Assembly (NCBI RefSeq): GCF_016765695.1
Contig: NZ_JAETGO010000034.1
Location: forward strand, 1-64,000
Direction of reading: 5' to 3'
Length of the DNA stretch: 64,000 nucleotides
DNA from: Sporosalibacterium faouarense
GTDB taxonomy: Bacteria; Bacillota; Clostridia; Tissierellales; VENL01
Below, one piece after another: positions 1-19,299 of this stretch; positions within the stretch are counted from its first letter, which is position 1, and every line of letters begins with the position of its first letter. Under the pieces are notes generated by a model. The model was not told the DNA's origin and did no database searches. It saw nothing but the letters and a program-made list of their open reading frames with translations. Both the position numbers and the translations under genes were made by a program.

Positions 1-3000
1 TATCCATAGGTGGTTTAGTTGGAAGTAACTACGGTGATATAGAAAATTGCTATGTGGAAGGTACTGTTGAAGGAGAAAGCTCCACAGGACTATTAGTAGG
101 ATTTAATGATGGGACAATAGAAAAATCGTATGCAAATGGTTCAGTAAAAGGAGATTCCGAATCCACAGGAGGCTTAGTGGGCTATAACTTCACAGGTACG
201 ATTAAAGAAACATATTCAGCTGGAAGTGTATACGGATCTAAGGATAACGTAGGAGGATTAGTAGGTCATAACTTTGCTGGTGATATCATAGATAGTTATT
301 CAACGGCAAGGGTAGAAGGAAGATATAATGTAGGTGGACTAGTTGGAGAGATGATTTCTGGCTCAATAACTAATTGCTATGCAATAGGCCAAGTATCCGA
401 TGGTAGAAATAATGTCGGTGGCTTGATTGGAGAAGCATTTGATATGGTAAGAATTGTAGATAGTTATTGGGATAGAATAGAGACAAATCAGGCATCATCA
501 AGCGGCGGAGAAGGAAAGCTTACAAAAGCATTATTAATGCAGGAATTTTATTCAAATTGGAGTTTTACAGATGTATGGACAATAGATGAGAATGAATCAT
601 ATCCATACTTTAAATGGCAGAATAAAAATATACCTGAAAAAAGTTTTGATTACTTTGTAGAAGGTAATGGTACAACTTCAAACCCATATATAATTACCAA
701 TTCAGAGGAATTAAACTTAGTTAGATACGAATTAGATGGACATTATAAACTTGGTAATGACATTAATTTAGCAAGTTATGGGCAATGGGAAACAATTGGA
801 ACAGATAAAACTGAGTTTAAGGGTAGTTTAGATGGAGATCGACATAAAATAATAAACTTAACTATAGATGCAGATAGTGATAATCAAGGATTGTTTGGAG
901 TTATTCATAAAACAGCTATAATCAAAAATATAGGTCTTGAAAATGTAAATGTATCAAATACAGACAATGAATACACAGGAGCATTGGCCGGAGAAAATCA
1001 CGGACTTATACAAAACACTTATGTTAAAGGTAGTGTTAAAGGTGAGAAATTTACTGGATTATTAGTAGGAGATAATGATGGGACAATAGAGACATCTTAT
1101 ACAGATGGCTCAATAGTTGGTGATTCTCATTATGTTGGCGGATTAGTAGGATATAACAGCGGTAATATAAATGAAACGTACTCAACTGGAAGTGTATATG
1201 GAGCAAAGAATAATGTAGGTGGATTAGTAGGAACTAACCGTGATGGAAGCATTGAAAACAGTTATTCGACAGCCAGTGTAGAAGGGAAACATGACGTAGG
1301 TGGATTAGTTGGAGAGGTTACTTCTGGAACAATAAATAATTGTTATTCAACAGGAGAAGTTACTGACATTGATAATAATGACGGACACGGTCATGATGGA
1401 CATTGGTTTGGTGAAAATAAGATCGGTGGATTAATTGGTAGTAAACACTTTATGGCAACAGTTAGAGATAGTTATTGGAATATAGATACATCAGGACAGA
1501 GAGATTCCGACGGTGGAATAGGCAAAACAACAACAGAAATGAAAAGCGAAGAAACATATAGGAATTGGAATTTCCAAGATGTCTGGAGTATTGATAGTAG
1601 AGGAAAGATAAACAATGGATACCCATGTATACAACAAATTATGCCTCCAACAATTACATTAAACGGAGAAACAGAGACTACATTGGAAGTTTTCTCAAGA
1701 TATATAGAAGAAGGGGCTGTAGTTACAGACATAGTAGAAGGAAATTTAACTAATAATTTAAAAATAATTGGATCAGTTGATACATCTATGCTTGGAGACT
1801 ACAAAATAACATATAAAGTTAGTGACAACATGGGAAATGAAGTAACAGAATATAGAACAATACATGTTGTAGACACAACTAAGCCAATAATCACTTTAAT
1901 AGGAGATGAAACTGTTCACCTTAATGTAGGTGATAACTATATAGAAGAGGGATCAATAGCTGAAGATAATTATGATGGAAACATTACAGATAATATTGAA
2001 ATATCTGGGGCAGTTGATACAAATATAGAAGGAACATATGAGATAAAATACAATGTTACTGATGATAATGGAAATATTGCCAATGAAGTTATAAGGACAA
2101 TAGTTGTGACATTGGGTATACCTGATAATTTAATGACTTCAGCTACTTCGGACAGTATAAATATATCATGGTTACCAGTGACTGGCGCAACAGGTTATGA
2201 TATAGAAGTTTATGGGTCAATAGTCGATGCTGGTGATAAAACAGAATATACCCATGAAGGACTTAATCCAAATACTCAGCTTACTTATAGAGTGAGAGCT
2301 AAAAGCTCAAGATCTGTCAGTAAGTGGAGTGGTATAGTTGCTCAAACTACTCTAACAGGTACACCTAAAAACATAGACGCAGAGGCTACAGATACAACTA
2401 TTGATTTATCATGGGATCCAGTATCAGGAGCAAAGGCATATGATATTGAGATAGATGGTGTAGTGTCAGAGATAATTGATAATAAATATCTTCACGATCA
2501 ATTATTGTCTAGCTCTGAACACAGTTATAGAATTCGATCTAAAAATGAGGAAGGAATAAGTGAGTGGAGTGAATTGTTCATAAAATCAACTTTACCATCC
2601 ATTCCATCTAATTTAAGCTCAGACATACAAATAAATGAAGTAACCTTAACTTGGGATGAAGTCCCTAGGGTAACAGGATATGAAGTAGAAATTAATGGCG
2701 AAGTTATAGAGAATGGAATGAGCAATACATATACAATCGACACAAATGAACCAAACAAAGAATATATCTTTAGAGTAAGGTCAAATAATGAAGGTTTAAA
2801 TAGTGGATGGAGTTCTCAAATTGTAGTAATTACTCCACCAGAAGAGCCAAAAAACTTAATAGCTACATCCTTAAGTACTCAAATTACTGTAAAGTGGGAT
2901 TCGGTGATTGGTGCAGAAGGATATGAGATAGAAATAGACGGAGAAGTATATGATGTTGGGTTAAAAACCACATATATGCATAGTAACTTAACACCAAATA

Positions 3001-4127
3001 CTGAATATTCTTATAGGATTAGATCTAAGAATAATGGCGGAATAAGTGAATGGAGTGAGAAGATAGTTGCAACGACATTGCTAAGTGTACCATCTAACCT
3101 TGGTGCTGTATCATCAAGTGATGGAATTTTTCTAACTTGGGATGATGTAGACGGAGCAGTTGGTTATGACGTGCTTGTAGATGGAGAAACAATTGATAAT
3201 GGGAATAGCACTGTCTTTGAGCATAAAGATCTTGAGCCTAATACTTGGCATTATTATAGAGTTAGGGCAAAACAGGGAGAGTATGTAGGGGATTGGAGTG
3301 ATAGTATCACCCAAGCTACCTTAGTTGGTATACCTACTAATATTCATACAAGTTCAAGTAGCTCAAAAATTATAGTAAAATGGGATACGGTAAATGGAGC
3401 AGAAGGTTATGATTTATTAGTAGATGGAGAATTGGTAGAGGATGTAGATTCTAGTAAATATAGACATGATGAACTTGATCCAGGTACAACTCATTCATAT
3501 AAAATAAGGGCTAAAAATTCAAATGGAATTAGTGATTGGAGTATATTAGTAAAACAAATAACTTCACCAGATATCCCTGATGATTTAGAAGCAGAAGCTA
3601 CAACTTCGGAAATTAGGATAGTTTGGGATGAAGTAGATGGAGCTTCAAGCTATGATATAGAGGTAGATGGAAAAGTAATCGAGGAATTAGATACTACTGA
3701 GTATATCCACAAGGATTTAGAACCTAATACTTGGCATTTATATAGAGTTAGGGCTAGAAATAATGGAGGCTATAGTGAATGGAGCGAAGAGCTACAGTAC
3801 AATACTAAGCCTGAAATTTCAGTAAATGTCGGTAAGGATACAACCTTTAATTTTGTAGTAGTAGCTCCAAAGAAAGATGGTGTAACCACAAGATATATAG
3901 AGGTTAATTATAATCCTGATGAATTAGAAGTAATTGATTTATGTGCTGTAACTCCAGAGGTTAATCTAGAGTCAGGAGATATAACTGGAACAAATATTTC
4001 AGTTACTAGTTTTGAGCCAGGTAGAATCACCTATAAGGTTACGGATGCAGATAAAACAATAGTAAATAGTATAAAATTCAAAGCCAAGGTAAGTAAGCAC
4101 TCTAAAGTAACTTATGAGGTGAAATAG
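1..4127 (+). CDS. Secreted GLUG / Ig-like / FN3 multidomain surface protein, 5' end outside window
   Basis: The frame is open from the first complete codon at nt 3, so the gene starts upstream of the window; the GTG at nt 54 lies inside a GLUG repeat and is not the start. Order seen: GLUG repeats (GGLVG-x-N pattern) to about nt 450, an 'NWSFTDVWTID' closing segment, a second complete GLUG module (about nt 650-1640), two DUF5011-like Ig domains (about nt 1640-2110), seven FN3 domains of about 80 residues (about nt 2115-3810; recurring 'YDIEVDG' and 'YRVRAK' strands), and a C-terminal beta-rich module resembling a cohesin fold ('YNPDELEVIDL'). No LPXTG motif, SLH domain or C-terminal membrane helix is present, so wall attachment is unexplained. 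GLUG and FN3 domains occur in extracellular adhesins and carbohydrate-binding proteins. It heads a block of five co-oriented exported-protein genes. The domain calls are firm; the biological role is inferred. Confidence 0.85.
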   Translation, partial: SIGGLVGSNYGDIENCYVEGTVEGESSTGLLVGFNDGTIEKSYANGSVKGDSESTGGLVGYNFTGTIKETYSAGSVYGSKDNVGGLVGHNFAGDIIDSYSTARVEGRYNVGGLVGEMISGSITNCYAIGQVSDGRNNVGGLIGEAFDMVRIVDSYWDRIETNQASSSGGEGKLTKALLMQEFYSNWSFTDVWTIDENESYPYFKWQNKNIPEKSFDYFVEGNGTTSNPYIITNSEELNLVRYELDGHYKLGNDINLASYGQWETIGTDKTEFKGSLDGDRHKIINLTIDADSDNQGLFGVIHKTAIIKNIGLENVNVSNTDNEYTGALAGENHGLIQNTYVKGSVKGEKFTGLLVGDNDGTIETSYTDGSIVGDSHYVGGLVGYNSGNINETYSTGSVYGAKNNVGGLVGTNRDGSIENSYSTASVEGKHDVGGLVGEVTSGTINNCYSTGEVTDIDNNDGHGHDGHWFGENKIGGLIGSKHFMATVRDSYWNIDTSGQRDSDGGIGKTTTEMKSEETYRNWNFQDVWSIDSRGKINNGYPCIQQIMPPTITLNGETETTLEVFSRYIEEGAVVTDIVEGNLTNNLKIIGSVDTSMLGDYKITYKVSDNMGNEVTEYRTIHVVDTTKPIITLIGDETVHLNVGDNYIEEGSIAEDNYDGNITDNIEISGAVDTNIEGTYEIKYNVTDDNGNIANEVIRTIVVTLGIPDNLMTSATSDSINISWLPVTGATGYDIEVYGSIVDAGDKTEYTHEGLNPNTQLTYRVRAKSSRSVSKWSGIVAQTTLTGTPKNIDAEATDTTIDLSWDPVSGAKAYDIEIDGVVSEIIDNKYLHDQLLSSSEHSYRIRSKNEEGISEWSELFIKSTLPSIPSNLSSDIQINEVTLTWDEVPRVTGYEVEINGEVIENGMSNTYTIDTNEPNKEYIFRVRSNNEGLNSGWSSQIVVITPPEEPKNLIATSLSTQITVKWDSVIGAEGYEIEIDGEVYDVGLKTTYMHSNLTPNTEYSYRIRSKNNGGISEWSEKIVATTLLSVPSNLGAVSSSDGIFLTWDDVDGAVGYDVLVDGETIDNGNSTVFEHKDLEPNTWHYYRVRAKQGEYVGDWSDSITQATLVGIPTNIHTSSSSSKIIVKWDTVNGAEGYDLLVDGELVEDVDSSKYRHDELDPGTTHSYKIRAKNSNGISDWSILVKQITSPDIPDDLEAEATTSEIRIVWDEVDGASSYDIEVDGKVIEELDTTEYIHKDLEPNTWHLYRVRARNNGGYSEWSEELQYNTKPEISVNVGKDTTFNFVVVAPKKDGVTTRYIEVNYNPDELEVIDLCAVTPEVNLESGDITGTNISVTSFEPGRITYKVTDADKTIVNSIKFKAKVSKHSKVTYEVK

Positions 4128-4156
4128 ATGGAACATAGAGAAGAGGAGTTGTGGAA

Positions 4157-7100
4157 ATGAATCGGTCAAAAACAATTTTCATTTTAATAATAGCTATGGT
4201 TATTACATCTTTACCTATGAATGTCCACGCCGGAAGTGAATTAGACATTGTTTTCATAATTGATGAGTCTGGAAGTATGGGAAGCGATATTGCAGATGTA
4301 AGAAATCAGATAAAAAACTTTACAAGTAATTTACAAAATGAAGGAGTAAATTATAGGCTAGGGCTTATATCATATGAGGAAGATACAAGAGTATTTTCAA
4401 TGACTAGCAACGTTGAGAGCTTTAAGGATAACTTGGACAGTATAGATGTCCATGGGGGAGTAGAAAATGGGCTTGATGCTATTAATGATGCTATTGATAG
4501 ATATACCTATAGAACACATGCGATTAAATACTTTGTATTAATAGGAGACGAAGAGATTTATAGTGATCGTGGGTATAGAGATGACCAGACAATTCAAAGA
4601 CTTCAAAACAATGACATAATATTAACTTCTGTTTCAATTTCAAATAATCGTAGTCAGTTCAGAGAGTTTTCTGATGGAACAGATGGATTAACTTTAAATT
4701 TAAATAGTGGTTTTGGTAGAAATCTGACATCAATATTTGAACAAATACAAAACATTCCCAAATTAGAAGTTATTTCTCCTAGTGAAAATCAAATGTTGAG
4801 TGATTTTGATAGTTCATTTATTCCTAGGGTTATTGGTTCTGATGCAGATAGTGATGCATTAACATTTGAATATTATATTGATTCGGAAAGTACACCTAAA
4901 GATAGAAAATATATAACTAATACTGAAACAGAGCATACTGTTAACTTTGATGCAATAGATATTGGGCAACTTTCAGAAGGAAGCCATAGATTCAGATTTA
5001 AAGTATCTGATGGTAGTGATGAGGTAGAGCAAGAGGTCAATGTTACTATTGATAATCAGGCACCTTTATTAGGAAATGTTAACTTTGATTATTCAGATAC
5101 TGATATTAATATAAGTGGGTCTGCAACAGATAATATATCTGGATTGGCACATAATCCATATAGATATAGTATTAACGACAGTAGTAGTACTTGGACCTCT
5201 CAAACCAATTATGCATCAGATTTATTGAATCCAAACACTGAGTACCAAGTTAAATTTGAAGCTAGAGATGATGTGGGACATATTGCAAGTAAGATTGAAT
5301 CCATATGCACAAAATCTCAAATTCCAAATCTTATTGTTGAAAGTTCTAATGAAAACTCATTGGAAATTAGTTCTCAGGACGGAAATCCTTCAACGACAGA
5401 TTATCAAATTAAAGTAGGTGGGAATTATCTGGATTCAGATGGCAATACTGTTTCTAGTCCTACATGGATTAAGTTGAATAATAAGAGAATCACATTAATG
5501 GATTTGACGGTTAATACAAGCTATAATATACAAGCTAGAACTAGAAATCAAGAGAATATTAGTACTGAATTTTCTAATGAAATAACAGGAACAACCTTGG
5601 CAAAGCCACCCACTAATATTTCTTTAATACCTCAAAGGAATTCAATAGAAATATCATGGGAGGAAGTAGTTGGAGCGACGGAATATGAATTAATGGCTGA
5701 TGGGGAGATAATAAATAATGGAACAAGGACAAGCTATATACATAATAGCTTGTCTCCAGACTCTCAGCATAGCTACATGGTTAGAGCAAATAACTCAGGT
5801 GGTGCAGGGAATTGGAGTGAAGCATTCAATGAGGTGACATTACCTAATCCACCGTCTACACCTACTAATCTTGAGATTACACTATCACAGGAATCTATCT
5901 CAATAAATTGGGATGAAGTAATAGGAGCCACAGAGTATTTAATTGAAGTTGATGGAGCAGTAATTGAAAATGGGAAAAATATTACTTTTACACACGATAA
6001 TTTGCAACCTGAAACTGAGCATAGTTATAGAGTGAAAGCAATAAACCGTGGTGGTGAAAGTAACTGGACTGAATTGAGGACAGAAACTACATTACCATAT
6101 CCTCCAGAGATACCTACTAATGTGATGTTAGAAAAAACTAAAGATACAGTAACATTAACTTGGGACGAGATGGATAGAGCTACGAGCTATCAATTACAAG
6201 TAGATGGATTGATAATTGATAATGAAAATAAAACAACATTTGTACATGAAGGATTAGAGCCTTTATCTGGACATACCTATAAAATAAGAGCTGTTAATAA
6301 GGGCGGTAAAAGTTCGTGGACGGAGTCAATTGATGCGACAACAAACCCAGAGAAGCCAGATACTCCAGAAAATGTAATGGCTACATCTGAAGAAAACTCT
6401 ATAACAATAACTTGGTATAAGATTCTTAATTCAGAAAGTTACGATATAGAAGTAGATGGAAATGTGATAGAAGATATTACGGATACAGTATATATACATG
6501 ATGGTCTAGATCCTAATACAGAGCATGTTTATAGGGTAAGAGCCAAAAATATAACTGGTAAAAGTAATTGGAGTAAGCCATTAACAATGTTTACCTTGCC
6601 TGAAATAGATGAATCAAATGGAAACGTAGCATTAACAAATATAATAGCTATTGTCACTAATAATAAAATATCTCTTTCATGGGATGCTGTAGCAATGGGA
6701 GCTAAATATCAAATAGAAGTTGATGGTGAACTAAAAGATATAGGAGAAGATACGATATTTAATCATACAGGGTTAGAAGAAAATTCCTTCCATACCTACA
6801 AAATCAGATTTAAGGATGAAAATGGGACCAGTCAATGGTGTGGAGTTTTAGCATTAGCAACCTTACCGAATCCACCAGATGCTCCGAAAAATGTAGAAGT
6901 AACTACATTTGATAATATGATAGAGCTTAGATGGAATAAGATAGATGGTGCAACTGGATATGATGTAGAGATAGATGGTGAGACCATAGATAATGGAATA
7001 AATACTAGCTATACGCATGGTGAACTTGAGCCAGGTACATCTCATATATATAGAGTAAGGGCAAAAAACATTACAGGCATAACAGCTTGGAGTGATGCAA

Positions 7101-7456
7101 TAACAGAAAGTACCAGCAATCCAACATATAAGGTAAATTGTACTAAAGAAGAAGAATTCAATCTATCCCTTTTAGCCTCAAATGTACAGGACTTTACAGA
7201 TTTAAGATTTGTTGTTACTTATGATTCAAATGAAGTTGAGGTACTAGACTTATATAACTTTACACCAAATGAAGACTTAATTACAGAAGGGAAAATAGAA
7301 GGTACTAACATTTATGTGAAACATACACTGGGAAGAATAGAATTTTCAGTTGATAGAAATATAGTGCCAGGAACATCATGGTCTGGAGAAATATCAGACA
7401 TATTATTTAAATCTAAAATTGATGGAGAGAGTTATATAGATTATGTAGTCGAGTAA
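4157..7456 (+). CDS. Secreted von Willebrand factor A / FN3 protein
   Basis: I chose ATG 4157 over GTG 4151 because GAGGAG at 4143-4148 lies 8 nt before the ATG but only 2 nt before the GTG. Residues 1-25 are a signal peptide ending VHA. A VWA domain follows directly, with the MIDAS metal motif DESGS at residues 36-40, to about residue 200. Next come two beta-sandwich domains rich in Asp/Ser, about six canonical FN3 domains ('SWEEV', 'YRVRAKN' strands), and a C-terminal module of about 105 residues that matches the end of the preceding protein in plan ('YDSNEVEVLDL' against 'YNPDELEVIDL'). There is no sortase motif. VWA domains bind protein ligands through a divalent metal, so an adhesion or assembly role on the cell surface is plausible. 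The gap to the upstream gene is 29 nt and to the downstream gene 20 nt, suggesting one operon. Confidence 0.85.
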   Translation: MNRSKTIFILIIAMVITSLPMNVHAGSELDIVFIIDESGSMGSDIADVRNQIKNFTSNLQNEGVNYRLGLISYEEDTRVFSMTSNVESFKDNLDSIDVHGGVENGLDAINDAIDRYTYRTHAIKYFVLIGDEEIYSDRGYRDDQTIQRLQNNDIILTSVSISNNRSQFREFSDGTDGLTLNLNSGFGRNLTSIFEQIQNIPKLEVISPSENQMLSDFDSSFIPRVIGSDADSDALTFEYYIDSESTPKDRKYITNTETEHTVNFDAIDIGQLSEGSHRFRFKVSDGSDEVEQEVNVTIDNQAPLLGNVNFDYSDTDINISGSATDNISGLAHNPYRYSINDSSSTWTSQTNYASDLLNPNTEYQVKFEARDDVGHIASKIESICTKSQIPNLIVESSNENSLEISSQDGNPSTTDYQIKVGGNYLDSDGNTVSSPTWIKLNNKRITLMDLTVNTSYNIQARTRNQENISTEFSNEITGTTLAKPPTNISLIPQRNSIEISWEEVVGATEYELMADGEIINNGTRTSYIHNSLSPDSQHSYMVRANNSGGAGNWSEAFNEVTLPNPPSTPTNLEITLSQESISINWDEVIGATEYLIEVDGAVIENGKNITFTHDNLQPETEHSYRVKAINRGGESNWTELRTETTLPYPPEIPTNVMLEKTKDTVTLTWDEMDRATSYQLQVDGLIIDNENKTTFVHEGLEPLSGHTYKIRAVNKGGKSSWTESIDATTNPEKPDTPENVMATSEENSITITWYKILNSESYDIEVDGNVIEDITDTVYIHDGLDPNTEHVYRVRAKNITGKSNWSKPLTMFTLPEIDESNGNVALTNIIAIVTNNKISLSWDAVAMGAKYQIEVDGELKDIGEDTIFNHTGLEENSFHTYKIRFKDENGTSQWCGVLALATLPNPPDAPKNVEVTTFDNMIELRWNKIDGATGYDVEIDGETIDNGINTSYTHGELEPGTSHIYRVRAKNITGITAWSDAITESTSNPTYKVNCTKEEEFNLSLLASNVQDFTDLRFVVTYDSNEVEVLDLYNFTPNEDLITEGKIEGTNIYVKHTLGRIEFSVDRNIVPGTSWSGEISDILFKSKIDGESYIDYVVE

Positions 7457-7476
7457 TATAAGAAGGAGAGATAGGA

Positions 7477-8385
7477 TTGAGGACTTTAATTGGCAATACT
7501 AAAAGGTTTATAATTTCTTTGCTAGTGATAACCCTCTTAATTCCTCTTGTAATTACAGGATTAAGCGCTGGAGGATTTAATGGAGATGATTTAAGGATTG
7601 CTACAGAAATATCAAACCTCACAGGAGTAGATATTAATAGAGTACTTGAACTGAAAAGCATAAGAGGGTCCTGGAATCAAGTATTAGATATGTTGAGAAG
7701 TGAAAAAAGCAGACAAAAGTCAAAGGATAAAAGAAGCAATGGTATCTTACAATCAAGTGTGAGTGACAAATTTGTGAAAAAATTGATTGATGAAGGTAAT
7801 ACAGAAGCTGATGTAATGGATGCTAAAATGCTAGTAGAAAAAGTTATTTACCAATTAAATGAGATTACAAATAGTGTGGCAGAAACGGTTTCAGTAAGTA
7901 ATGCAGTGATAGGAGAAGATGGTGAAAATAATGATATAGCTCAGTACGTCAATTTAAAGAATAAGATAGATATGGAAACAGCTATTTCTGTAATATTAAA
8001 GCTTCAAGATAAGTACGATACAATCGAAACTGCGTTAAATGAATATTTGTACTCATTACAGCTCGACATAAATTTAGAAGATTATATCAATAATCAAGAA
8101 AAATACGAAGAAGAAAAAGAAAAGAAAAGAATGGAGATAAACTTAACTCAAATAATAACACTTTCAGAGATAGAAAGTGAGGTATTAGCAAAAATACAAA
8201 GGGAAAATGAAGAACAGTTAAGTTTGGGGAAAAGTAGCCTTGAAGCTGAAGGAGAGCCATTAGAAAATAATTTATATAATGAAAATTTAGATGTACCAAA
8301 TGTTAGTGTAGAGGATGTAAAGCCTTTGAATCCTACAGAAGAGCTAATGAATGAGATAAGGGTTATTAACCCAAATGAAAACTAG
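7477..8385 (+). CDS. Exported helical-repeat protein of unknown function (RHS operon)
   Basis: The TTG start is supported by AGAAGGAGAG at 7461-7470. The protein has 302 residues, with a hydrophobic export signal over about residues 10-31. No named family is recognised. After the signal, a helical unit reads 'DLRIATEISNLTGVDINRV' and runs into 'GSWNQVLDML'; a second partial unit starts 'FVKKLIDEGNTEADVMDA'. The same plan, xxLIxEGxxxxDxxxA followed by GxxWxxI, occurs three times in the next protein. The C-terminal third is charged and Asn/Glu-rich with possible coiled coil. It lies between the VWA/FN3 gene and the RHS gene with gaps of about 20 nt, so a role in export, folding or display of those giant proteins is possible but is inference. 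Confidence 0.75.
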   Translation: MRTLIGNTKRFIISLLVITLLIPLVITGLSAGGFNGDDLRIATEISNLTGVDINRVLELKSIRGSWNQVLDMLRSEKSRQKSKDKRSNGILQSSVSDKFVKKLIDEGNTEADVMDAKMLVEKVIYQLNEITNSVAETVSVSNAVIGEDGENNDIAQYVNLKNKIDMETAISVILKLQDKYDTIETALNEYLYSLQLDINLEDYINNQEKYEEEKEKKRMEINLTQIITLSEIESEVLAKIQRENEEQLSLGKSSLEAEGEPLENNLYNENLDVPNVSVEDVKPLNPTEELMNEIRVINPNEN

Positions 8386-8402
8386 ATAAGGAGATGACTA
8401 AA

Positions 8403-9245
8403 ATGAACAGAAAGAAAGTATCCAGATTTTTATTGGTTATGTTAATGGTATGCGCAACACTGCAAATTGGAGCAATATCTTATTCCAGCGCTGCTAAACA
8501 ATTAAATGGAAGCATTAATGAAACTTCTGAAAATCAAAAAATTGAGGATATAGAAATTTCTCAAGAAATACTAAATTTTATAAAAGATGCAGACCCAGGT
8601 GATTACGGTACGAATGTAACCAATTACAAAAAAGCATTAATAGAATTAGGAATCCAACCAAGATTTAAATCTGAAATTGAAAGACTAATCAAAGAAGGCC
8701 ATAGCTTACCAGATTTATTAATTGCCTATGAGTTCTTATATAATAATTTTGGAAAAATGGAAGAACTTGAAATATTAAGTAACAAAAAACAGTCAGGTAA
8801 ATCGTGGTCAAAAATCTTTGCTACATATCAATCAGAAAATGGAGAGTTCATTCCAAATTCCTTTGACCCTCAATACTTACAGGACTTAATGAGAGAAGAA
8901 TATATTACTCCTGATGACATTATGATAGCAGATAGAATTGCATATAAACTAGGGCTTGAGCATAAGGATATAATTTCCTATAGATTTGATGGGATAGAGT
9001 GGAAAAAGATAAACGAAGATTTAGGAATTTTAAATAGCCAAAGTGAATTACCTAGGGTAAAAGTAACAGAGGAACAGTTAGACAAGCTTACTAATCAGTA
9101 TAATTTATCTGAAGAAGAAATTATAGAAGCATTAGTAATCGCTGAAAGAATAGATAAAGATTCAAAGGAAATAATTGAAAAAATAAAATCAGGTTACAGT
9201 GAAGTTGAAATTCTCGCTGAATGCTATCAAGAAAAGTATTATTAG
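8403..9245 (+). CDS. Exported protein with three helical GxxWxxI-type repeats (RHS operon)
   Basis: ATG 8403 is preferred to ATG 8394: AAGGAG at 8388-8393 touches the first ATG but sits 9 nt before the second. The 280-residue product has a signal peptide to about residue 31 ending near SSAA. Three related units begin near residues 90, 157 and 225, with starts 'EIERLIKEGHSLPDLLIA', 'YLQDLMREEYITPDDIMIA' and 'QLDKLTNQYNLSEEEIIEA'. The first two end in a Trp motif ('GKSWSKI', 'GIEWKKI'); the third has Tyr ('GYSEVEI'). The preceding protein shares the unit, so the two are diverged relatives. The RHS gene starts 46 nt later. No known family name can be given. Partnership with the RHS protein is inferred from operon position only. 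Confidence 0.75.
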   Translation: MNRKKVSRFLLVMLMVCATLQIGAISYSSAAKQLNGSINETSENQKIEDIEISQEILNFIKDADPGDYGTNVTNYKKALIELGIQPRFKSEIERLIKEGHSLPDLLIAYEFLYNNFGKMEELEILSNKKQSGKSWSKIFATYQSENGEFIPNSFDPQYLQDLMREEYITPDDIMIADRIAYKLGLEHKDIISYRFDGIEWKKINEDLGILNSQSELPRVKVTEEQLDKLTNQYNLSEEEIIEALVIAERIDKDSKEIIEKIKSGYSEVEILAECYQEKYY

Positions 9246-9291: not shown

Positions 9292-12200
9292 GTGAAGGGA
9301 ATATACAAATTACTACTTATTTTAAGCATATTCACAATTTTTCTTCCTATTCAAGGAGTTAACGCAGATACTCTTGAGGAATATATGAATAATGTTGTAG
9401 GGCCGAAGAAACAGTACGATACAGAATTATCACCAGTTTACTTAAAAAGCAACCTATCGAAGGAAAATATAAGTCCAAATAGTGGAGAGCTGACATTAAC
9501 ACAAACAGATTATTCATTACCTGGACGAAATGGTTTAGATTTGGAAATAAAGAGAATATATAAGAGTGGAACATCAAATGTTCAAGAGATGAAGGTTAAA
9601 TATGTAAATGGTGCATGGGTAGATTATGTGGAATCCAATGAAAAAACATCTTCATTTTATGAAGATAGATATAATCTAGGTGTAGGAACAAGATTTTCTT
9701 TTCCTAGTATAGAAGTTAGAGAGAGCAAAGATGGTAATAAGAATATGTTTTTACATACAGACACTGGAGCAGTATATACTCTACAAGATGTATTGATGGA
9801 TGATGAACTTACCTATATTTTGCAAGGACAGACTGTAAATGATGTATATGTTAGAGAATCATCTGAGTTTAATAATGGTCAAAGTGAAGGAACTTCAAAA
9901 TATGTAATGATGGGCAAAGATGGCAAAAAGACATATTTTGATTCCGAAGGAAAAATATTAGGAATAGTAGATAGATATGATAATACCATTACATTTCAAT
10001 ATTCAACTTTATCTTATGAAATTGATGGCACAGAAATATCTAAAAAATTAATATCCAAAATTATAGATACAGTTGGTAGAGAAGTAACCATAGAATATAA
10101 AGAGGATTATAATTTCACAGTTAGTGCAAAACAAAATCAACAATATAGTAAGGATGAAAGCTATAAAGCATCACAGGACCCAAATAGTACTGATTCTGGA
10201 GATCTTAATAATAAATTTCAGGTAATAATAAATTTACCTGGAGATAAAAAAATAGTCTATGATAAATCGGCAGTCTTAGTAAGTGATTCTAAAAAAGTAA
10301 TAAGGACAAGGCTTCAAAGAGTATATGATATAGATGGTAAGCCTAAATATCATTTTTGGTATGAACAACCTAAATTAGGTTTTACTTTTATGAATGGTGA
10401 CGATTATTCAGTTTATAATGGATATGAAAATCTAGTACAAATAGATTACTGTAAAACTAATAAAGTTACCAGATATACCTATGATACATTTGCTAAAAGA
10501 CTTAATGAAGGAAGTATGGAGTATCGAAAGATATTTCAAAGAAAAGACTTTGCTAAGAAGGACTTCGATAGTACACAAAATAAGTTTTTAGACAAATTTG
10601 TATTAGAAGAGAAGGACAAAACTGACTATGAATATATAAATGAATCCGATGGATATGGTGAAGAAGATTATGAACGATATAATAATGATTATTTAGAGAA
10701 TAGCTATAGATATTACACTAAAATCACAGATATGAAGGGTAACGAGACTAATTATACATATGATGGACTTCATCAGCTTAAAGAAACATTAATAAATGGA
10801 GATGACTATAAAGAAGTAATCACTACAGAACATGATGAGATGAAGTTAATTAAGAAGAAGGAAAGTCTTATATTTAATATACAAGATGGGGAAGACGTAG
10901 GTACTCCTATTAAGAAAACACAAAACTATAGATATGATGAATATGGTAATCTAACTAATTATACGGGTCCAGAAGCAGAAAGAGATGAGGATGGAAACCC
11001 TATAAATGACGAGCATATGGTCACTTATTCCTATGCATATGATAAGTATCATGTGTTAACATCAAAGACTTGGAAACAGGATAAAGACACTACATCTCAG
11101 ATATTATATGATGTTGATGATAATGGAAATGTAATAAAGGAAACAAAACAAAATACCCAGGGATATAATCAATCAATAGTTATAGAATATAACTATGATG
11201 AATATGGTAATATGATAAAATCAATAAAACACTCTAGTGATAGAAACTATATTACTAATTATGATTATGGAATAGATGCAGATGGCGTAGACCATAAGGG
11301 TGCATACTTAACTAAGAAGTATACAGTATTAGATAATGGAGAGATATCAGAAAAGTACGCTTATGATAGAAACACTGGAAATATAACAGCAGAAATTAAT
11401 CCAGATGGAAAGAGAACAGAATATCAGTATGATACATTAGGAAGACTTTTAGAAACAAAACGACCTGATTTAACGACTAAAGAGTACAAATACAATGAGT
11501 TTAAATATAAAAATAGGGAAATAGAGTATACAGATTCCAATGAGGATCGTTATAAAAAGGAATACGATATATTTGGAAACTTAGTAAAATCAAGTGTATA
11601 CGATAAAGAAAATGAGGAATGGACAGTTCTTAAAAGGATAGAGTATGATAATGATGGTAACAAGACAAAGGAAGTAGATTCTAATGGGAATAGCGTTAGA
11701 TATGAGTATGATAGCGCAAATAGGCTTATTAAAAAAGCCTTTTATAAAAATGACCAAATATTAACAGGAGATAAGGATTTTAGTTACATAATAGGTTATG
11801 ATGACGATACTGCTTTATTAGTTGAAGCAACAGATGAAGAAGGATATAAAACAAAAAATTATTTCGATATATTAGACAACTTATTTAGAGTAGAGGCTAC
11901 ACCTGATAATAAAAACTATTTTGTTACATCATATACCTATGATTATGTTGGTAATAAAACAAGCACAACAGACCCTAAACTAAACAAAATACAATATGAG
12001 TTTGATAAATTAGGGAGAATGGTAAAGAAGGTTGATCCAGAGCTTAATGAAACTACATATGTCTATAATAGCTTAAACAAGGTAGTCATAGCAGAAGAGC
12101 CTGGGGGTAGAATCACAAAGTATAAATATGATGAATTGGGCAGGAAGATAGAGGCATGGATATTCCCAAAAACCTCAGAAGGTTATCTTTCAAATGACTA

Positions 12201-15200
12201 TATACCAAATAATTATACTTATACAAAGTATAAATACAATAATGTGGGGAAATTGTCTAATGTCATAAAAGGGAATGTAGTAGATAATGTAGATAAAATA
12301 GAAACAGATATATCCTATGAATACAATGATATGGACAGACTCACAGATGAATATCATAAAATAGATGATAATAGACAAAGTCATACTCATTATGAATATG
12401 ACAATAAAGGAAACAATGTAAAAACAATAAGATATGTAAATCAAGAAGAAACAAAATATAAAGAATATAATTATGAGTATTATTTCAACAATAAGGTTAA
12501 ACAGGAAGCTGGTGCATATATAGAAGTTACAGATGATGGCAATATAAAGCATGGAGAATATGTCAGAAAGTATGAGAGGGATAATGAAGGAAACCTAATT
12601 AAGAAAATAGATATAGGAAATGAAGGAAAGGACATTGTAACTGATTTTGAATATGACAATCAAAATAATGTAACTAAAACTGTTGGACCTTACTATATAG
12701 ACAAATCCTCAGGAGAAGTATTAAGTGAGGCAGTCAATACTATAAACTATAAATATGATTCCAAAGGTAATCTATTATCTAAAAAGTCAATGGTAAATGG
12801 AGAAGAAATGGGAGAGATTTATACCTATGATGGATTAAATAATGTATTGACTAAATCCAATATCCTTGGTGAAACAACAAGATTTGTTTACGATGCAAAT
12901 AGTAATCTAGTAAAGCAGGTAGATCCAAGATATATTGATATGGACATTGAAGCTGCTCCAGGAATAGAATACGAATATGATTCTTTAAATAGAAAGATAA
13001 AAACTATAGCCTTTGATGGTGAAAATAAGAAAGTCGTTAAATACATTGAATTTGATGGAAGAGGTAATTTGATTAAAGAAGTTGATGGAGAAGGATATAA
13101 TACTGAAGAACCATCAAAATCAATAGGCAATGAATACGAATATGATGTATTTAATAATTTAACAATATATAAATCTGCTCAAACAGTAGCAGATAATATG
13201 AAATATGGTACAAATAACTTCACTAATAAATATAAGTACAATGGACTGGGGAAGGCAATTTATGAAGAAGATTCCAAGGGAAATAAAACAGAGACAGAGT
13301 ATTATTTAAATGGAATGACTAAGAAGGTCACTTTTGCTGATGGAACTAGTGAAGAGTATAATTATGATTTAACAGGAAATTCAGAAATCACTAAAACAGA
13401 TAAAATGCAGCACCTAACCAAAGTATATAACAATGTTTTCAGCAAACCATATAAGAAAGTATATGTCGATGAAACATATGAAGTATTTAAATATGATGAT
13501 TTTGGAAACTTAAAAGAAAATTATGACCAAATAAAAAGTCCTAAGCTAGAAAATCCTAATGAATATGAGTATAATGCATTAGGGAAGTTAGTATCTAAAA
13601 AACAATATATAGCTGAGGATGATGATTACAAATATTATAAAATAACCAAGAATACCTATGACGAAGCCGGTCGGTTATTAAGTAAAGAAACATTTGAATA
13701 TAAAGAATCTAAAGGTTCAAATGAAACATCAACTACCTCTGCAGAAGATAAAGTTGAATACCAGTATGATAGAGCTGGTAGACTAATAAAAACTTATGGT
13801 CCTATGGGACGAGAAATCACAAATGAATATGATGATACAGGCAACTTAATTACTAAAAAGAGTAAGATAGATGAAAATAATTATAAAATTACAAGATATG
13901 AATACGATACTAGGTCTCAGCTAATAAAACAATCTCTATTAGTAGACACCTCTGATATAAAGAATGAGTATTTATCAAATGCGGAGTTTGATGATGAATA
14001 CTTCTCTAAAATAAAATCAAGTATAACTTATAGCTATTATAATAATGGACAAGTTAAGACTAAAGAAGATTCCCTAGGAAATATCATAAGCTATAAGTAT
14101 GACTATGATAACAGAGTTGTTGAGCAGCAGAGACAAGATGAAGAAAATCCCATTAGGTATGAGTATGATTCAGTAGGAAACTTAATAAAACAAACTAATC
14201 AAAAATCAGTATCTGTATACTATGAATACGATGTAATGAACAGACAGACCCGTAAAATAGTACCAGCAGCTGATGGAAGCTTAGCCATTACTAAGTATAT
14301 ATATGATGACATGGGTAATCTTATAAAACAAGTTACACCAAATAATTATGATGAAGATATGGATACTTCTGAATTAGAAGAATTAATGGAAGGAATATCA
14401 TATATATATGACTCTATGAATCGTAGGATAGCTACATTATCACCAGAAGGTGAAGTGATAGAATACATCAAATACGATGCTCTAGGTAGAGTGACTAAAA
14501 GAGTTGATGGACTAAGATATACTGGAGATATGGAAACCTCAGAAGGTATAACATATAAGTATGATAGCTTAGGAAGGGTAGTAGAAGAAAAACTAGCTAC
14601 TCAATCCCCAAGCAGTTATAAGTATGATATGCTGGGAAATCTTGTAAAGAAGACAGACCAAAGAGGGAACTCTATATTATTTGAATACAACCCAGATGGA
14701 ACTTTAAATAAAGTAACTTACCCAGACTCAGGGTATATAACATATGAATATGACTTATTAGGAAGAAAGACTAGTCAAACAGATCAAAGGGGTTATACAA
14801 CATTCTTTAGCTACAATGCCTTTGATAAGCAAAGAAAACTGACAGATCCTTGTAAAATAGATGAAGTAGTAGACAATATTAATGATTTAGAAGCAATAGA
14901 GAGTAAATATGATTTAAATAATGTGTTATATAAATACGACTTAAATGGAAATGTGGTTTCAGTTAAAGATAAAAGAGATACTACAACATTAATGTCATAT
15001 GATTATTTAAACAGAGTAGTAGAAAAGAAAATACCTATTGAGAGAGATACAAGTGGAAATATAATATATAGGATAGAAACCTATGAATATGATGAGGTAG
15101 GAAACCTGTTTAAAGAAACAGTATCAGACTCAAAAAATAGGACAGAAGCAAGGGAAATAACCCATACCTACTATGACAATAATCTAGAAAAGACAGTAAC

Positions 15201-18200
15201 AAATAATAATGGAAGCTACATCAAATCATACTATGATAAAAATGGAAATGTTATTAAGACAGAAACCCTTAGGGAAACTGGTATATATGACATTCAGAAA
15301 TTTGAATATGATAATCAAGATAGACTTTTAAAAGAAATATCTTTAATCAATGAAGATGACGTATACAATTATCAGGACTTTGACAACTTAGACAATCTAA
15401 GAGATGAAGAATATCCAGATAAAATAAAAATCATAACAGGATATGAATACGATATATTAGGTAATAAGATAAAACAAATAAATTCAAGGGCATATCAATA
15501 CGGAAAAGCAGATGAAGTAAATAGAGAAAAATATACAGTGACATTTACATATGACATCTTAAACAGAGTTGAAAAGACAATAAGTATGTATAAAGGTCAA
15601 GAGGTATATACTCAGAATTATTACGATGAAGCAGGAAATAAAATCAAGGTAAGAAATGCAAAGGGATCAGAAACCAATTATACCTATGATGAAATGAATA
15701 GAGTTAAAACTGTAACTAATGCCAAAGACCAAACTATAACTTATACTTATGACTTGGCAGGAAATAAGACAGCAGAAACTAATGACAAGCAAAATTCCGT
15801 GTATTACATTTACGATAAATTAAACAGAGTAATCATTACAAAAAACGATGATGAAGAAGTAATATCTAAAAGAATATTTGATGCAAATGGAAATGTAATA
15901 AAAGAAATGGATAGAAAAGGCTATCTATCAGCAAATATAGATGAAGAAAGATATGGAATACAATATACTTATAATCTAGCAAATCAGGTAGTGAAAATAG
16001 TAGATCCAGAAATAACAGAATACAATCAAGAAAATGGTACTAACAAATTTACTGCAAAATATGGGTATAATGTATTTGGAGAAAAAATCAAAGAAATAGA
16101 TGCCTTAGGTAATGCAATTAAATATGAATATGACAATGTTGGTAATCTAATAACTGTATTAAATCAGTTAGAAGAATCAACAAGTTATACTTATGACAAG
16201 CTAGGCAATAAACTAACAATGAAAAATCCTAAGGATAAAATAACCTACTATAAATATGGCGCATTTGGAACATTAATTGAAGTAGAAGACCAAGATGATA
16301 ACACAATAAAATACAAATATGACATAGCTGGCAATCAAGTATATACAGAGGATAAAAGTAAAAATCATTTAATACAAACATTTGATAATAGAAATTTACT
16401 AACTAAGAAGGAAATACTTGAAACAGAAGATAAGGTAGAATATGACTACGATGAATTAGGAAACAGAATAGAGATGATAGATGAAAGTGGAGTAACCACC
16501 TATCAATATAATGAAATAAATCAAATAGAGAGAATATATAAGGATAACTCTCAAGCACCTATATTAATCTACTCATATGATACAATAGGGAATATAAAGA
16601 CAGTAACAGATAAAAAAGGAAATAAGACAGAATATGAGTATGATAAGCTAAACAGGCTAAAAACTGTAACCTTTGATTCTAACAAAACAACATATCACTA
16701 TGATGAAAATGGGAACAGAGATTGGATAGACTATCCAGGGGGAATAAGAGAATCATATGAATATAATAAAAACAACAAATTAATAACAGTAACAAATACA
16801 GCACCAAATGGAAATATAATATCAGAATATAAATACACATATGACTTAGCGGGAAGACAGATAAGTAAAACAGATAACTATGGAACAACAACATATGAAT
16901 ATGATGAAGCAGGAAGAATAGAAAAAGTAGTAGCCCCAGGGAAAACAACAGTCTATGGATACGATAAGGCGGGAAACAGAGAAACATTAAATGAAGCCTA
17001 TACATCAGAACAATATAGTGCCTATAAAAATACAATAGGAGAATCAGTAAAATATTCAATAAAGAAAAGCTATTACACATATTCAGATTCAAATCAATTA
17101 CTAAAGCTAGTAGAAAAGATGTATGACAAAGAAAGTAAACAGGTCCTTCAAAAGACAATAGACTATATATACGATAATAGAGGAAATGAGCTAAGACAGA
17201 AAACAAGCTATATAAGACCTCAAAATAAGGACATGCATCAAAAGACTATAGGAAATATATTTGACTTTGGATTTAAAAGAAAGATAAACCCCTTGATATA
17301 TAAAGTAAGCAACACATACAATGGGTTTAATCAGCTAGTTAGAAGTGAAAACATCAAAGAAGAAGAACAGACAATAGTAAACTACACATATGATGGAGAC
17401 GGACTAAGAACAAAGAAAATAGTCAAATCCTCAGAGGAAGACTTTGAACCTAAAACAACATACTTCCTCTACGATAGACAATATGTTATATTAGAAACAG
17501 ATGAAGATAATGAAACAATAAGAAGATATGTAAAAGGAATAAACTATGTTGCAATCTTAGATAGTAGTGACGAAGAAAGCAATGAAACAAATATTTACTA
17601 CTACCTATATAATGGGCATGGTGATGTAGTACAAACAGTAGACGAAAATGGAAAAACTAAAAATCAATATGACTTCGATATCTTTGGAAATGCAATATTG
17701 ACGTCAGAAGAACACGATAATCCAATAAGATATTCAGGAGAATACTTTGATGAAGAAACAGGATTGTACTACCTAAGGGCTAGATACTATAATCCATATA
17801 CAGGTAGATTTATAACAGAAGATAGCTATACAGGGGAAGATAATAACCCACTGAGCTTAAATCTGTATACTTACTGCTATAATGATCCGATACAGTTTGT
17901 TGACCCGACAGGGCATTATGTAGTTTGTCCTGATGAAAGTAGTGACTCAGGTTCATATTATAATGATTCTGATGATGATCAATCCAAACCTGCATTGACA
18001 AGAGGTGCAAGTGGAGATGATGTAGCAGAACTACAAGAGAAACTTATAGATGAAGGATACGATTTAGGATCCTGGGGAGCAGATGGATCATATGGTCCAG
18101 CAACAGAACGAGCAGTAAAACAATATCAAGAAGACCATAATCTCACAGTAGATGGAATGACAGGAAATGAGACTTGGGGTAGTCTACTTGATGAAGATGA

Positions 18201-19299
18201 TAATAGTTCTAGTAACTCAAATACAAATAGCTCAAGTGACCCATATGAAAGATATTTAGATAATAAGTATGAAGAAATTAATGAAGGATTAGATGATACT
18301 GAGACTGTCTATAACGATGATGATGACGAACAGGAATCAAATAGTTCAACTAATAATAGTAGCAACAATTCAAGTGATCCATATGAAAGATATAAGAATA
18401 AGAAGAATGAAGAAATTAGTAAAGGGTTAGATGAAACAGAGACTGTAAATAACAATAATAGCAATGGACAAGAATCAAATAATACAACTAATAATAGTAG
18501 CAACAATTCAAGTGATCCATATGAAAGATATGTGAATAGGAAGAATGAAGAAATTAGTGAAGGGTTAGACAAAACAGAGACTGTTAATAGCAATGATAGT
18601 AGTAATGGATCAAGTGATGGTAATTTAGATATTACTGAGGGGACGAGTGATAGCACACATTATCTTACTTCATTTGATTCCATTAGTAAAGAAATACAGG
18701 ATAGTGCGAAAAAGTATGTAGACGAAATAATAGAAGATGAAATTATCTATCAATCTGCAACGTTTCCAGTTAGACATACTTTACACGAGGTTTCCAAAGG
18801 ATACCTATTTCAGAGAGAATATTTAAATGAGCTCGAAAGGGAAAATGCGATAAATTCTATACCATCTGTGGGTGATTTAGCAAAAACTACTTATGATGGA
18901 TATCAGTTTGCAGCAAAACAAGATCCTCGATTGGCAGCACTAGCTTTTGTAGGGTACATGTCAATAAGTCTTGCCAGTGGATCAAACTATGATAGTATAG
19001 GTAATTTAGATTTAAGTTCTCTTACAGATGAGAAAGTTATTGAAGCTAAAATGCAATCAGATGCAATAAATAATACACCTTATAAATATCTAATCACTAC
19101 CTCTTCTGGAAGAGAGAAATTTATAGAAGAGATAGATAATTTAATTGATGAGGTATCCAAGGTTGAGAGTTATAGTAAAGAGTATAAGCAGGCAATTATA
19201 TCCTATGCTAACTTACTAAAGCAAATCAATGCAGATTATAAGGAGTCAAAGAAAACCGTTGATTATATAAAAGATAATCCAGTATATTTTATTCCATAG
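9292..19299 (+). CDS. Giant secreted RHS/YD-repeat protein, possible polymorphic toxin
   Basis: The GTG start follows AAAGGAGG (9275-9282) by 9 nt. The product has 3335 residues. Order: signal peptide 1-25; N-terminal beta-rich region to about 400; very long YD-repeat array (about 400-2760; units such as 'YEYDSLNR' and 'YDELGN'); RHS core ('YLRARYYNPYTGRFITED', ending DPTGH near 2875); peptidoglycan-binding PG_binding_1-type domain, about 2900-2965 ('RGASGDDVAELQEKL', 'YGPATERAVKQYQ'); three 46-residue Ser/Asn-rich repeats; and a C-terminal domain of about 210 residues that I do not recognise. RHS/YD proteins such as WapA form a hollow beta-shell and deliver variable C-terminal toxins to neighbouring cells; here the toxin assignment is inference. 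Placement of a wall-binding domain after the core is unusual. Two small exported or membrane proteins follow and are immunity candidates. Confidence 0.92.
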   Translation: MKGIYKLLLILSIFTIFLPIQGVNADTLEEYMNNVVGPKKQYDTELSPVYLKSNLSKENISPNSGELTLTQTDYSLPGRNGLDLEIKRIYKSGTSNVQEMKVKYVNGAWVDYVESNEKTSSFYEDRYNLGVGTRFSFPSIEVRESKDGNKNMFLHTDTGAVYTLQDVLMDDELTYILQGQTVNDVYVRESSEFNNGQSEGTSKYVMMGKDGKKTYFDSEGKILGIVDRYDNTITFQYSTLSYEIDGTEISKKLISKIIDTVGREVTIEYKEDYNFTVSAKQNQQYSKDESYKASQDPNSTDSGDLNNKFQVIINLPGDKKIVYDKSAVLVSDSKKVIRTRLQRVYDIDGKPKYHFWYEQPKLGFTFMNGDDYSVYNGYENLVQIDYCKTNKVTRYTYDTFAKRLNEGSMEYRKIFQRKDFAKKDFDSTQNKFLDKFVLEEKDKTDYEYINESDGYGEEDYERYNNDYLENSYRYYTKITDMKGNETNYTYDGLHQLKETLINGDDYKEVITTEHDEMKLIKKKESLIFNIQDGEDVGTPIKKTQNYRYDEYGNLTNYTGPEAERDEDGNPINDEHMVTYSYAYDKYHVLTSKTWKQDKDTTSQILYDVDDNGNVIKETKQNTQGYNQSIVIEYNYDEYGNMIKSIKHSSDRNYITNYDYGIDADGVDHKGAYLTKKYTVLDNGEISEKYAYDRNTGNITAEINPDGKRTEYQYDTLGRLLETKRPDLTTKEYKYNEFKYKNREIEYTDSNEDRYKKEYDIFGNLVKSSVYDKENEEWTVLKRIEYDNDGNKTKEVDSNGNSVRYEYDSANRLIKKAFYKNDQILTGDKDFSYIIGYDDDTALLVEATDEEGYKTKNYFDILDNLFRVEATPDNKNYFVTSYTYDYVGNKTSTTDPKLNKIQYEFDKLGRMVKKVDPELNETTYVYNSLNKVVIAEEPGGRITKYKYDELGRKIEAWIFPKTSEGYLSNDYIPNNYTYTKYKYNNVGKLSNVIKGNVVDNVDKIETDISYEYNDMDRLTDEYHKIDDNRQSHTHYEYDNKGNNVKTIRYVNQEETKYKEYNYEYYFNNKVKQEAGAYIEVTDDGNIKHGEYVRKYERDNEGNLIKKIDIGNEGKDIVTDFEYDNQNNVTKTVGPYYIDKSSGEVLSEAVNTINYKYDSKGNLLSKKSMVNGEEMGEIYTYDGLNNVLTKSNILGETTRFVYDANSNLVKQVDPRYIDMDIEAAPGIEYEYDSLNRKIKTIAFDGENKKVVKYIEFDGRGNLIKEVDGEGYNTEEPSKSIGNEYEYDVFNNLTIYKSAQTVADNMKYGTNNFTNKYKYNGLGKAIYEEDSKGNKTETEYYLNGMTKKVTFADGTSEEYNYDLTGNSEITKTDKMQHLTKVYNNVFSKPYKKVYVDETYEVFKYDDFGNLKENYDQIKSPKLENPNEYEYNALGKLVSKKQYIAEDDDYKYYKITKNTYDEAGRLLSKETFEYKESKGSNETSTTSAEDKVEYQYDRAGRLIKTYGPMGREITNEYDDTGNLITKKSKIDENNYKITRYEYDTRSQLIKQSLLVDTSDIKNEYLSNAEFDDEYFSKIKSSITYSYYNNGQVKTKEDSLGNIISYKYDYDNRVVEQQRQDEENPIRYEYDSVGNLIKQTNQKSVSVYYEYDVMNRQTRKIVPAADGSLAITKYIYDDMGNLIKQVTPNNYDEDMDTSELEELMEGISYIYDSMNRRIATLSPEGEVIEYIKYDALGRVTKRVDGLRYTGDMETSEGITYKYDSLGRVVEEKLATQSPSSYKYDMLGNLVKKTDQRGNSILFEYNPDGTLNKVTYPDSGYITYEYDLLGRKTSQTDQRGYTTFFSYNAFDKQRKLTDPCKIDEVVDNINDLEAIESKYDLNNVLYKYDLNGNVVSVKDKRDTTTLMSYDYLNRVVEKKIPIERDTSGNIIYRIETYEYDEVGNLFKETVSDSKNRTEAREITHTYYDNNLEKTVTNNNGSYIKSYYDKNGNVIKTETLRETGIYDIQKFEYDNQDRLLKEISLINEDDVYNYQDFDNLDNLRDEEYPDKIKIITGYEYDILGNKIKQINSRAYQYGKADEVNREKYTVTFTYDILNRVEKTISMYKGQEVYTQNYYDEAGNKIKVRNAKGSETNYTYDEMNRVKTVTNAKDQTITYTYDLAGNKTAETNDKQNSVYYIYDKLNRVIITKNDDEEVISKRIFDANGNVIKEMDRKGYLSANIDEERYGIQYTYNLANQVVKIVDPEITEYNQENGTNKFTAKYGYNVFGEKIKEIDALGNAIKYEYDNVGNLITVLNQLEESTSYTYDKLGNKLTMKNPKDKITYYKYGAFGTLIEVEDQDDNTIKYKYDIAGNQVYTEDKSKNHLIQTFDNRNLLTKKEILETEDKVEYDYDELGNRIEMIDESGVTTYQYNEINQIERIYKDNSQAPILIYSYDTIGNIKTVTDKKGNKTEYEYDKLNRLKTVTFDSNKTTYHYDENGNRDWIDYPGGIRESYEYNKNNKLITVTNTAPNGNIISEYKYTYDLAGRQISKTDNYGTTTYEYDEAGRIEKVVAPGKTTVYGYDKAGNRETLNEAYTSEQYSAYKNTIGESVKYSIKKSYYTYSDSNQLLKLVEKMYDKESKQVLQKTIDYIYDNRGNELRQKTSYIRPQNKDMHQKTIGNIFDFGFKRKINPLIYKVSNTYNGFNQLVRSENIKEEEQTIVNYTYDGDGLRTKKIVKSSEEDFEPKTTYFLYDRQYVILETDEDNETIRRYVKGINYVAILDSSDEESNETNIYYYLYNGHGDVVQTVDENGKTKNQYDFDIFGNAILTSEEHDNPIRYSGEYFDEETGLYYLRARYYNPYTGRFITEDSYTGEDNNPLSLNLYTYCYNDPIQFVDPTGHYVVCPDESSDSGSYYNDSDDDQSKPALTRGASGDDVAELQEKLIDEGYDLGSWGADGSYGPATERAVKQYQEDHNLTVDGMTGNETWGSLLDEDDNSSSNSNTNSSSDPYERYLDNKYEEINEGLDDTETVYNDDDDEQESNSSTNNSSNNSSDPYERYKNKKNEEISKGLDETETVNNNNSNGQESNNTTNNSSNNSSDPYERYVNRKNEEISEGLDKTETVNSNDSSNGSSDGNLDITEGTSDSTHYLTSFDSISKEIQDSAKKYVDEIIEDEIIYQSATFPVRHTLHEVSKGYLFQREYLNELERENAINSIPSVGDLAKTTYDGYQFAAKQDPRLAALAFVGYMSISLASGSNYDSIGNLDLSSLTDEKVIEAKMQSDAINNTPYKYLITTSSGREKFIEEIDNLIDEVSKVESYSKEYKQAIISYANLLKQINADYKESKKTVDYIKDNPVYFIP
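18235..18648 (+). repeat. Three tandem 138-bp units coding 46-residue Ser/Asn-rich repeats
   Basis: Each unit opens with codons for SDPYERY (nt 18235, 18373 and 18511, an exact 138-bp period), continues with K-x-EEIxxGLDxTETV and ends in a Ser/Asn run. The first two units keep a QESN segment near the end; the third diverges there. The array lies between the peptidoglycan-binding domain and the C-terminal domain of the RHS protein and looks like an expandable flexible spacer. Confidence 0.9.

Follow-up and report, generated by a model that had tools for sequence, protein, structure and literature searches.

The five genes that open the window (the whole stretch of 64,000 nucleotides analysed here, from Sporosalibacterium faouarense) are best read as an operon of Gram-positive bacteria that encodes a Sec-exported RHS polymorphic toxin and its dedicated helpers, a reading to which we assign a probability of roughly 0.6. 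Judged from its sequence, the RHS protein is a polymorphic toxin, predicted to be exported through Sec and accompanied by a conserved set of four helper genes, encoding two giant FN3 proteins and two small helical proteins, ORF3 and ORF4. The set may, as an earlier note on this DNA supposed, anchor, unfold or present the RHS shell. That proposal of a joint function gained from a gene order kept across genera and from the presence of ORF4 and the RHS class in identical genomes, but it had overlooked the variable toxin C-terminus.

Layout and conservation of the five-gene block

All five ORFs that had been described as lying on one strand are present on the forward strand (Table 1), and Pfam confirms their main domains. 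Gene 1 has GLUG and bacterial Ig-like domains and a stalk of seven FN3 repeats, gene 2 combines six FN3 repeats with a VWA domain, and gene 5 has RHS/YD repeats (PF05593, 5.8e-122). For ORF3 and ORF4, the Pfam search returned nothing convincing. The 5' end of the operon lies out of sight because the first base of the window is the end of the assembly contig. Gaps between the genes are short, as the earlier note had stated, but measure 23, 20, 8 and 46 nt rather than 17–46 nt; a start of ORF4 at 8403 instead would account for the value of 17. Every start is preceded by a Shine-Dalgarno-like purine-rich sequence, promoter and terminator scans stayed at or near chance level, and an Rfam search found nothing. 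Signal peptides, previously ascribed to all complete members, were sought across loci with a crude motif search, not SignalP, for a hydrophobic stretch and an AxA-like site after it; this pattern appeared in 11/12 RHS and 11/11 VWA/FN3 proteins, but in only 4/11 ORF3 and 8/12 ORF4 proteins. By the same crude test, the hydrophobic stretch of ORF3 is present across loci and it is the AxA-like site that is rare; ORF3, and perhaps ORF4 too, may act as an uncleaved membrane anchor.

Table 1. Features of the five-gene block and of the genes directly downstream, in window coordinates.
Feature	Position	Strand	Details
GLUG/Ig-like/FN3 giant (gene 1)	3..4127	+	5' end cut by contig start
Cohesin-like C-terminal domain of GLUG/FN3 protein	3771..4124	+	aligns with the VWA/FN3 copy
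VWA/FN3 protein (gene 2), 1101 aa	4151..7456	+	signal peptide; MIDAS-type DxSGS motif
Cohesin-like C-terminal domain of VWA/FN3 protein	7100..7453	+	
ORF3, 302 aa	7477..8385	+	predicted helical protein, exported or membrane-anchored
ORF3 C-terminal tail, VKPxNPxxxxxxEixxiNPN	8317..8382	+	kept in 11/11 ORF3 proteins
ORF4, 283 aa	8394..9245	+	predicted exported helical repeat protein; closest RHS partner
RHS protein (gene 5), 3335 aa	9292..19299	+	
Conserved N-terminal region of the RHS class	9367..10671	+	follows the signal peptide
RHS-associated core domain TIGR03696	17677..17916	+	end of conserved shell; NCBIfam 4.6e-23, residues 2796-2875
Variable C-terminal region of RHS protein	17917..19296	+	identity drop
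PG_binding_1 in variable tail	18010-18186	+	Pfam
Repeat linker in tail	18232-18598	+	2.7 copies of 138 nt
Putative toxin in tail	18628-19296	+	residues 3113-3335
Putative immunity lipoprotein, 134 aa	19417..19821	+	position, lipobox; 118 nt 3' of RHS gene
Membrane protein, 152 aa, possibly a further immunity gene	19814..20272	+	no Pfam match
Lipoprotein gene, second copy, truncated	20497..20718	+	phmmer E 2.3e-4 to first copy
Transposase fragment (DUF772)	20946..21278	+	

Seven Paenibacillus-type genomes, G557 and one further member of the window's order, G021, show the complete order as well (GLUG/FN3, VWA/FN3, ORF3, ORF4, RHS), and most of the gaps there are short. The search for a conserved gene order that the earlier note had proposed was thus borne out across distant genera, and because the same order recurs in genomes so far apart, the layout is more than chance. 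In G021 the block consists of a GLUG/FN3 giant of 2066 aa, a VWA/FN3 protein of 1103 aa, an ORF3 of 292 aa, an ORF4 of 302 aa and an RHS protein of 3293 aa. Loci in Paenibacillus allorhizosphaerae, P. algorifonticola and Cohnella fermenti were found by a contig pattern scan with a three-row ORF4 alignment, an earlier contig scan with the window's ORF4 sequence alone having returned no relatives. The two Paenibacillus loci hold the complete five-gene order; in C. fermenti the last four genes are visible, and the contig starts inside the VWA/FN3 gene. Five further Paenibacillus-family genomes carry all five genes, with the VWA/FN3 gene duplicated in one of them. A third genome of the window's order, G015, has ORF4 and a shorter RHS gene only and can therefore dispense with the remaining three. 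Just 5' of this reduced pair (L014:12124-15650) lie a large Sir2-like protein and a recombinase, both recognised by eye, which are possibly an inserted element that displaced the missing genes.

Across loci, mean pairwise identity is 60% for the RHS N-terminal region, 46–52% for the C-terminal 700 residues of the FN3 proteins and 35% for both ORF4 and ORF3. Pairwise identities of the five proteins correlate (Spearman rho 0.55–0.86, with phylogeny and joint transfer left in), and joint horizontal transfer could be a partial cause of both this correlation and the conserved order.

Co-occurrence of ORF4 with RHS proteins

In the samples searched, ORF4 and the RHS N-terminal class went strictly together. 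A profile of the RHS N-terminal region gave full-length matches (E below 1e-200) in 6 of 105 Paenibacillus-family genomes, and the ORF4 profile independently picked the same six, adjoining the RHS gene every time. One of these genomes had fed the seed profiles and the other five were independent; the chance that two random sets of 5 from 104 coincide is ~1e-8. A single-sequence ORF4 search of 249 genomes of the window's order found confident relatives in two other genomes, G021 and G015. The RHS N-terminus and confident ORF4 matches fell, side by side, in the same three genomes of this order, all of which had contributed to the RHS profile, and no further genome among the ~248 has the RHS class without ORF4. 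The phylum sample (398 genomes) yielded four confident new ORF4 matches (G557, G344, G372 and G378), all directly 5' of RHS genes. Weak ORF4 matches in that sample (E 1e-4 to 1e-3) covered ~70–135 positions and were taken as chance. A plasmid search for the RHS N-terminus gave one weak match only. The earlier note had named, as a finding that would speak against joint function, small genes that are common without RHS genes; for ORF4, this pattern did not appear in the genomes searched.

ORF3 and ORF4 are related to each other (profile comparison, probability 94). The predicted ORF4 model, built from four sequences and of low confidence (pLDDT 60), is all helical and suggests about three units of four helices; it had no significant match among solved structures. 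Designed alpha-toroids were set aside as ORF4 homologues, the profile matches to them being judged to reflect repeat composition rather than homology.

Proteins resembling ORF4 also occur outside this RHS class. In the Paenibacillus family, seven of the RHS matches are weaker and represent other RHS classes. Directly 5' of these seven genes stand proteins with a weak resemblance to ORF4 (six at E 3.6e-6 to 0.0037, the seventh at 0.27, from a small search set with filters off). Taken together with one similar Cohnella protein, these upstream proteins matched the ORF4 profile at an hhalign probability of 92.9, against ≤0.4 for 30 column-shuffled controls, and the proteins of G344, G372 and G378 matched it at 99.3 (shuffled controls ≤0.9). 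An exception is the Cohnella fermenti RHS locus L066, where the upstream ORF lies on the opposite strand. Since ORF4-like matches stand 5' of several RHS classes and ORF3 is kin to ORF4, exported helical repeat proteins placed 5' of an RHS gene seem to be a recurring pattern, one whose presence in Paenibacillaceae the earlier note had missed. In the variant loci of G344, G372 and G378 (L056, L057 and L058), a giant, an ORF4-like protein and an RHS protein of 1769–1784 aa follow one another; by eye, the giant is an RCC1-repeat-like protein in G344 and G378 and a different secreted giant in G372.

These patterns bear on whether the five proteins cooperate physically at all. The block might instead be a co-inherited mobile or linked island, with an ordinary WapA-like toxin beside adhesin genes, and its patchy spread (6/105 Paenibacillaceae, 3/~248 genomes of the window's order) fits horizontal transfer; G015, which keeps ORF4 and RHS alone, also speaks for this view. 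We nevertheless consider such an island unlikely: order and tight spacing are kept across genera even though ORF4 proteins are merely 21–60% identical between them, and ORF4-like genes precede other RHS classes behind different giants (RCC1-like, other secreted or FN3).

Variable tails, candidate immunity genes and cohesin-like ends

The N-terminal region of the RHS protein is 62–64% identical to that of five of six aligned relatives and 41% identical to that of G015. Compared with eight full-length relatives, identity amounts to ~45–75% over the first 600 residues and ~25–60% through the shell, is then 50–60% up to the core, and falls to ~10% after residue ~2880. Of the features of RHS polymorphic toxins, repeats and core as well as a constant shell followed by a variable C-terminus are present. 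Tails of relatives carry Ntox47 behind PT-HINT (G671), papain-fold toxin 1 (G720), Ntox30 with LysM (G662), Ntox50 (G661) and a VgrG3-like C-terminal domain (G644). The window's own tail gave no significant family match, and 398 genomes held no clear relative of it, marginal matches only. In relatives, small immunity-like ORFs begin from a few nt to ~120 nt after most RHS genes; these genes and the toxin domains in the variable tails together argue for a polymorphic toxin.

The earlier note had set the block apart from RHS genes that stand with immunity genes. This contrast did not hold, as candidate immunity genes lie 3' of the RHS gene (19417-20272). Our guess is that a lipoprotein as immunity protein would fit an envelope-acting toxin. 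The truncated lipoprotein copy beside the transposase fragment (20497-21278) suggests a decayed second module. Orphan RHS fragments lie 3' of the main RHS gene in G021, G557, G671, G662 and G661; the window has no RHS remnants 3' of its RHS gene. G021 carries two orphan cassettes (L013:12271-16226 and 18230-19969), of which one ends in an M23 peptidase and the other resembles an ADP-ribosyltransferase by eye. In the distant genomes G021 and G557 the RHS tails are of one kind, and so are the 96–97-aa zinc-ribbon membrane proteins that follow them (L013:11721-12014 in G021), a candidate for a new toxin-immunity pair. Further downstream in the window (24330-28891), a DeoR-type regulator, a DUF1537-type kinase, a PdxA-like dehydrogenase and a GntP-type transporter, all assigned by eye, together resemble an operon for the catabolism of a four-carbon sugar acid.

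The two FN3 giants align with each other over their last ~118 residues. Pfam Cohesin matches 7 of 16 relatives of this end domain (best 2.2e-8) and, weakly, the window's VWA/FN3 copy (E 0.09). An AlphaFold2 model of the VWA/FN3 end domain is all-beta (mean pLDDT 83.5), and its top Foldseek matches are cohesin modules (probability up to 1.00, E 0.014 or worse, TM ~0.45–0.6); the end-domain profile found no match among PDB sequences. We take the end domain of both giants as cohesin-like. No dockerin was recognised by Pfam in the window's ORF3, ORF4 or RHS protein. Elsewhere in the same genome, contig C52 bears another RHS gene (L038:2-6633, minus strand), whose product is at least 1815 aa long and contains a cohesin domain in its interior. 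Directly before this gene lies that of a GLUG/FN3 protein whose end matches cohesin weakly, with no ORF3 or ORF4 between the two. In this arrangement, cohesin modules and RHS proteins are linked again. A dockerin suspected by eye in the second RHS protein received no support from Pfam.

Could the block build an adhesion or matrix structure instead, a lattice of RHS, FN3, VWA and GLUG proteins whose variable tails bind glycans or remodel the wall rather than act as toxins? The FN3, VWA, GLUG, Ig-like and cohesin-like domains are of kinds usual in adhesion and scaffolding, PG_binding_1, LysM and M23 occur in the tails of some loci, and the genome's second RHS protein with its internal cohesin domain would suit such a lattice. 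Yet the Ntox30, Ntox50 and papain-fold tails and the Ntox47 after HINT are classical polymorphic-toxin parts, and adjoining immunity-like genes and orphan RHS cassettes are unexpected in a structural lattice, which makes this explanation improbable.

Proposed mechanism and relation to known systems

Under the reading as a toxin operon, the RHS chain would exit through Sec, and ORF4, tethered to the membrane on its extracytoplasmic side, would receive the conserved RHS N-terminus. ORF4 would then hold the RHS protein as its shell folds to enclose the toxin, or retain it at the cell surface; we give this role of receiver and holder even odds. ORF3 would be a related adaptor, with its conserved C-terminal tail as a docking peptide. 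The FN3 giants would form adhesive or scaffolding stalks whose VWA and GLUG modules touch the target and whose cohesin-like C-terminal domains dock them to the complex, a role whose chances we put marginally below even. Delivery would be contact-dependent, with the tail released onto a competitor or inside it, and the producer would be shielded by the lipoprotein and the membrane protein encoded downstream. ORF3 and ORF4 are probably extracytoplasmic or membrane-bound because of their N-terminal hydrophobic segments. Export of the RHS protein by type VII secretion, with ORF3 and ORF4 as helical targeting factors, recalls LXG toxins, in which small helical targeting factors stand beside a large polymorphic toxin, but is very improbable in view of the Sec-type signal peptides ending in AxA in 11/12 RHS proteins of the class, the hydrophobic segments of ORF3 and ORF4 and the lack of any LXG domain detected by Pfam.

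WapA of Streptococcus suis, with its SecF-like protein and sortase, is the nearest published analogue of dedicated helpers (PMC12704120). Both systems have a Sec signal peptide, a long YD/RHS shell, a variable C-terminal toxin and an immunity gene on the 3' side (both candidates in the window), and helper genes on the 5' side. S. suis WapA carries its own LysM wall-binding anchor, and its coupling is to a SecF-like protein and sortase B (PMC12704120), whereas the helper genes here encode a pair of FN3 giants and a pair of helical repeat proteins. Pfam found no wall-binding domain in the conserved RHS N-terminal region, PG_binding_1 occurring only in the variable tail, and for this reason the protein is not a WapA in the strict sense. 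Bacterial teneurin-like proteins (PMC13018210) likewise combine a large YD shell, Gram-positive Sec export, a variable toxic C-terminus and a downstream immunity gene (again both candidates in the window), and they are known in Paenibacillaceae. Their FN-plug, NHL propeller and adhesion domains are all in one chain (PMC13018210), whereas the adhesion domains here are on separate proteins. Sequence searches of the window's RHS protein with Pfam and NCBIfam matched neither an NHL propeller nor an FN-plug, and since the NHL domain was not found, we do not class it as a teneurin-like protein. Pfam and NCBIfam also matched no SpvB or TcdB domain, as sought for a Tc toxin BC component, in the RHS protein.

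With the RHS-stalk polymorphic toxin systems of Zhang et al. (2012, PMC3482391), the block and its relatives share the tripartite plan, toxin families such as Ntox47, the HINT release domain and immunity genes, which are candidates here. The terms fibronectin, vWA and cohesin are absent from that paper, so it does not seem to cover the helper set. Cellulosome cohesin scaffolds, as in Acetivibrio cellulolyticus (PMC3413522), resemble the FN3 giants in bearing cohesin-fold modules on secreted FN3-bearing proteins, and RHS domains have been reported in that species on proteins containing cohesin and dockerin (PMC3413522). Unlike in those scaffolds, the cohesin-like domain here is short and sits at the extreme C-terminus, and the other three proteins have no dockerin match. 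No description of the helper set was found in the full-text literature searched, the scope of which left subscription journals and preprints outside, and within that literature the four-gene set appears undescribed.

More broadly, ORF4-type proteins may be a widespread and so far overlooked class of partners dedicated to Sec-exported RHS toxins in Bacillota. They would fold the RHS shell, or hold it, on the outer side of the membrane and, along with ORF3 and the cohesin-tipped FN3 giants, form a multi-protein surface machine presenting interchangeable toxins. We advance this generalization tentatively, at odds somewhat short of even. The passage of RHS toxins larger than 300 kDa across the Gram-positive wall has been stated to be unresolved (PMC12704120). 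The four-gene partner set and the helical family before several RHS classes offer concrete candidates for this question of wall passage, and would let annotators recognise Sec-type RHS toxin loci by an ORF4-like gene upstream.
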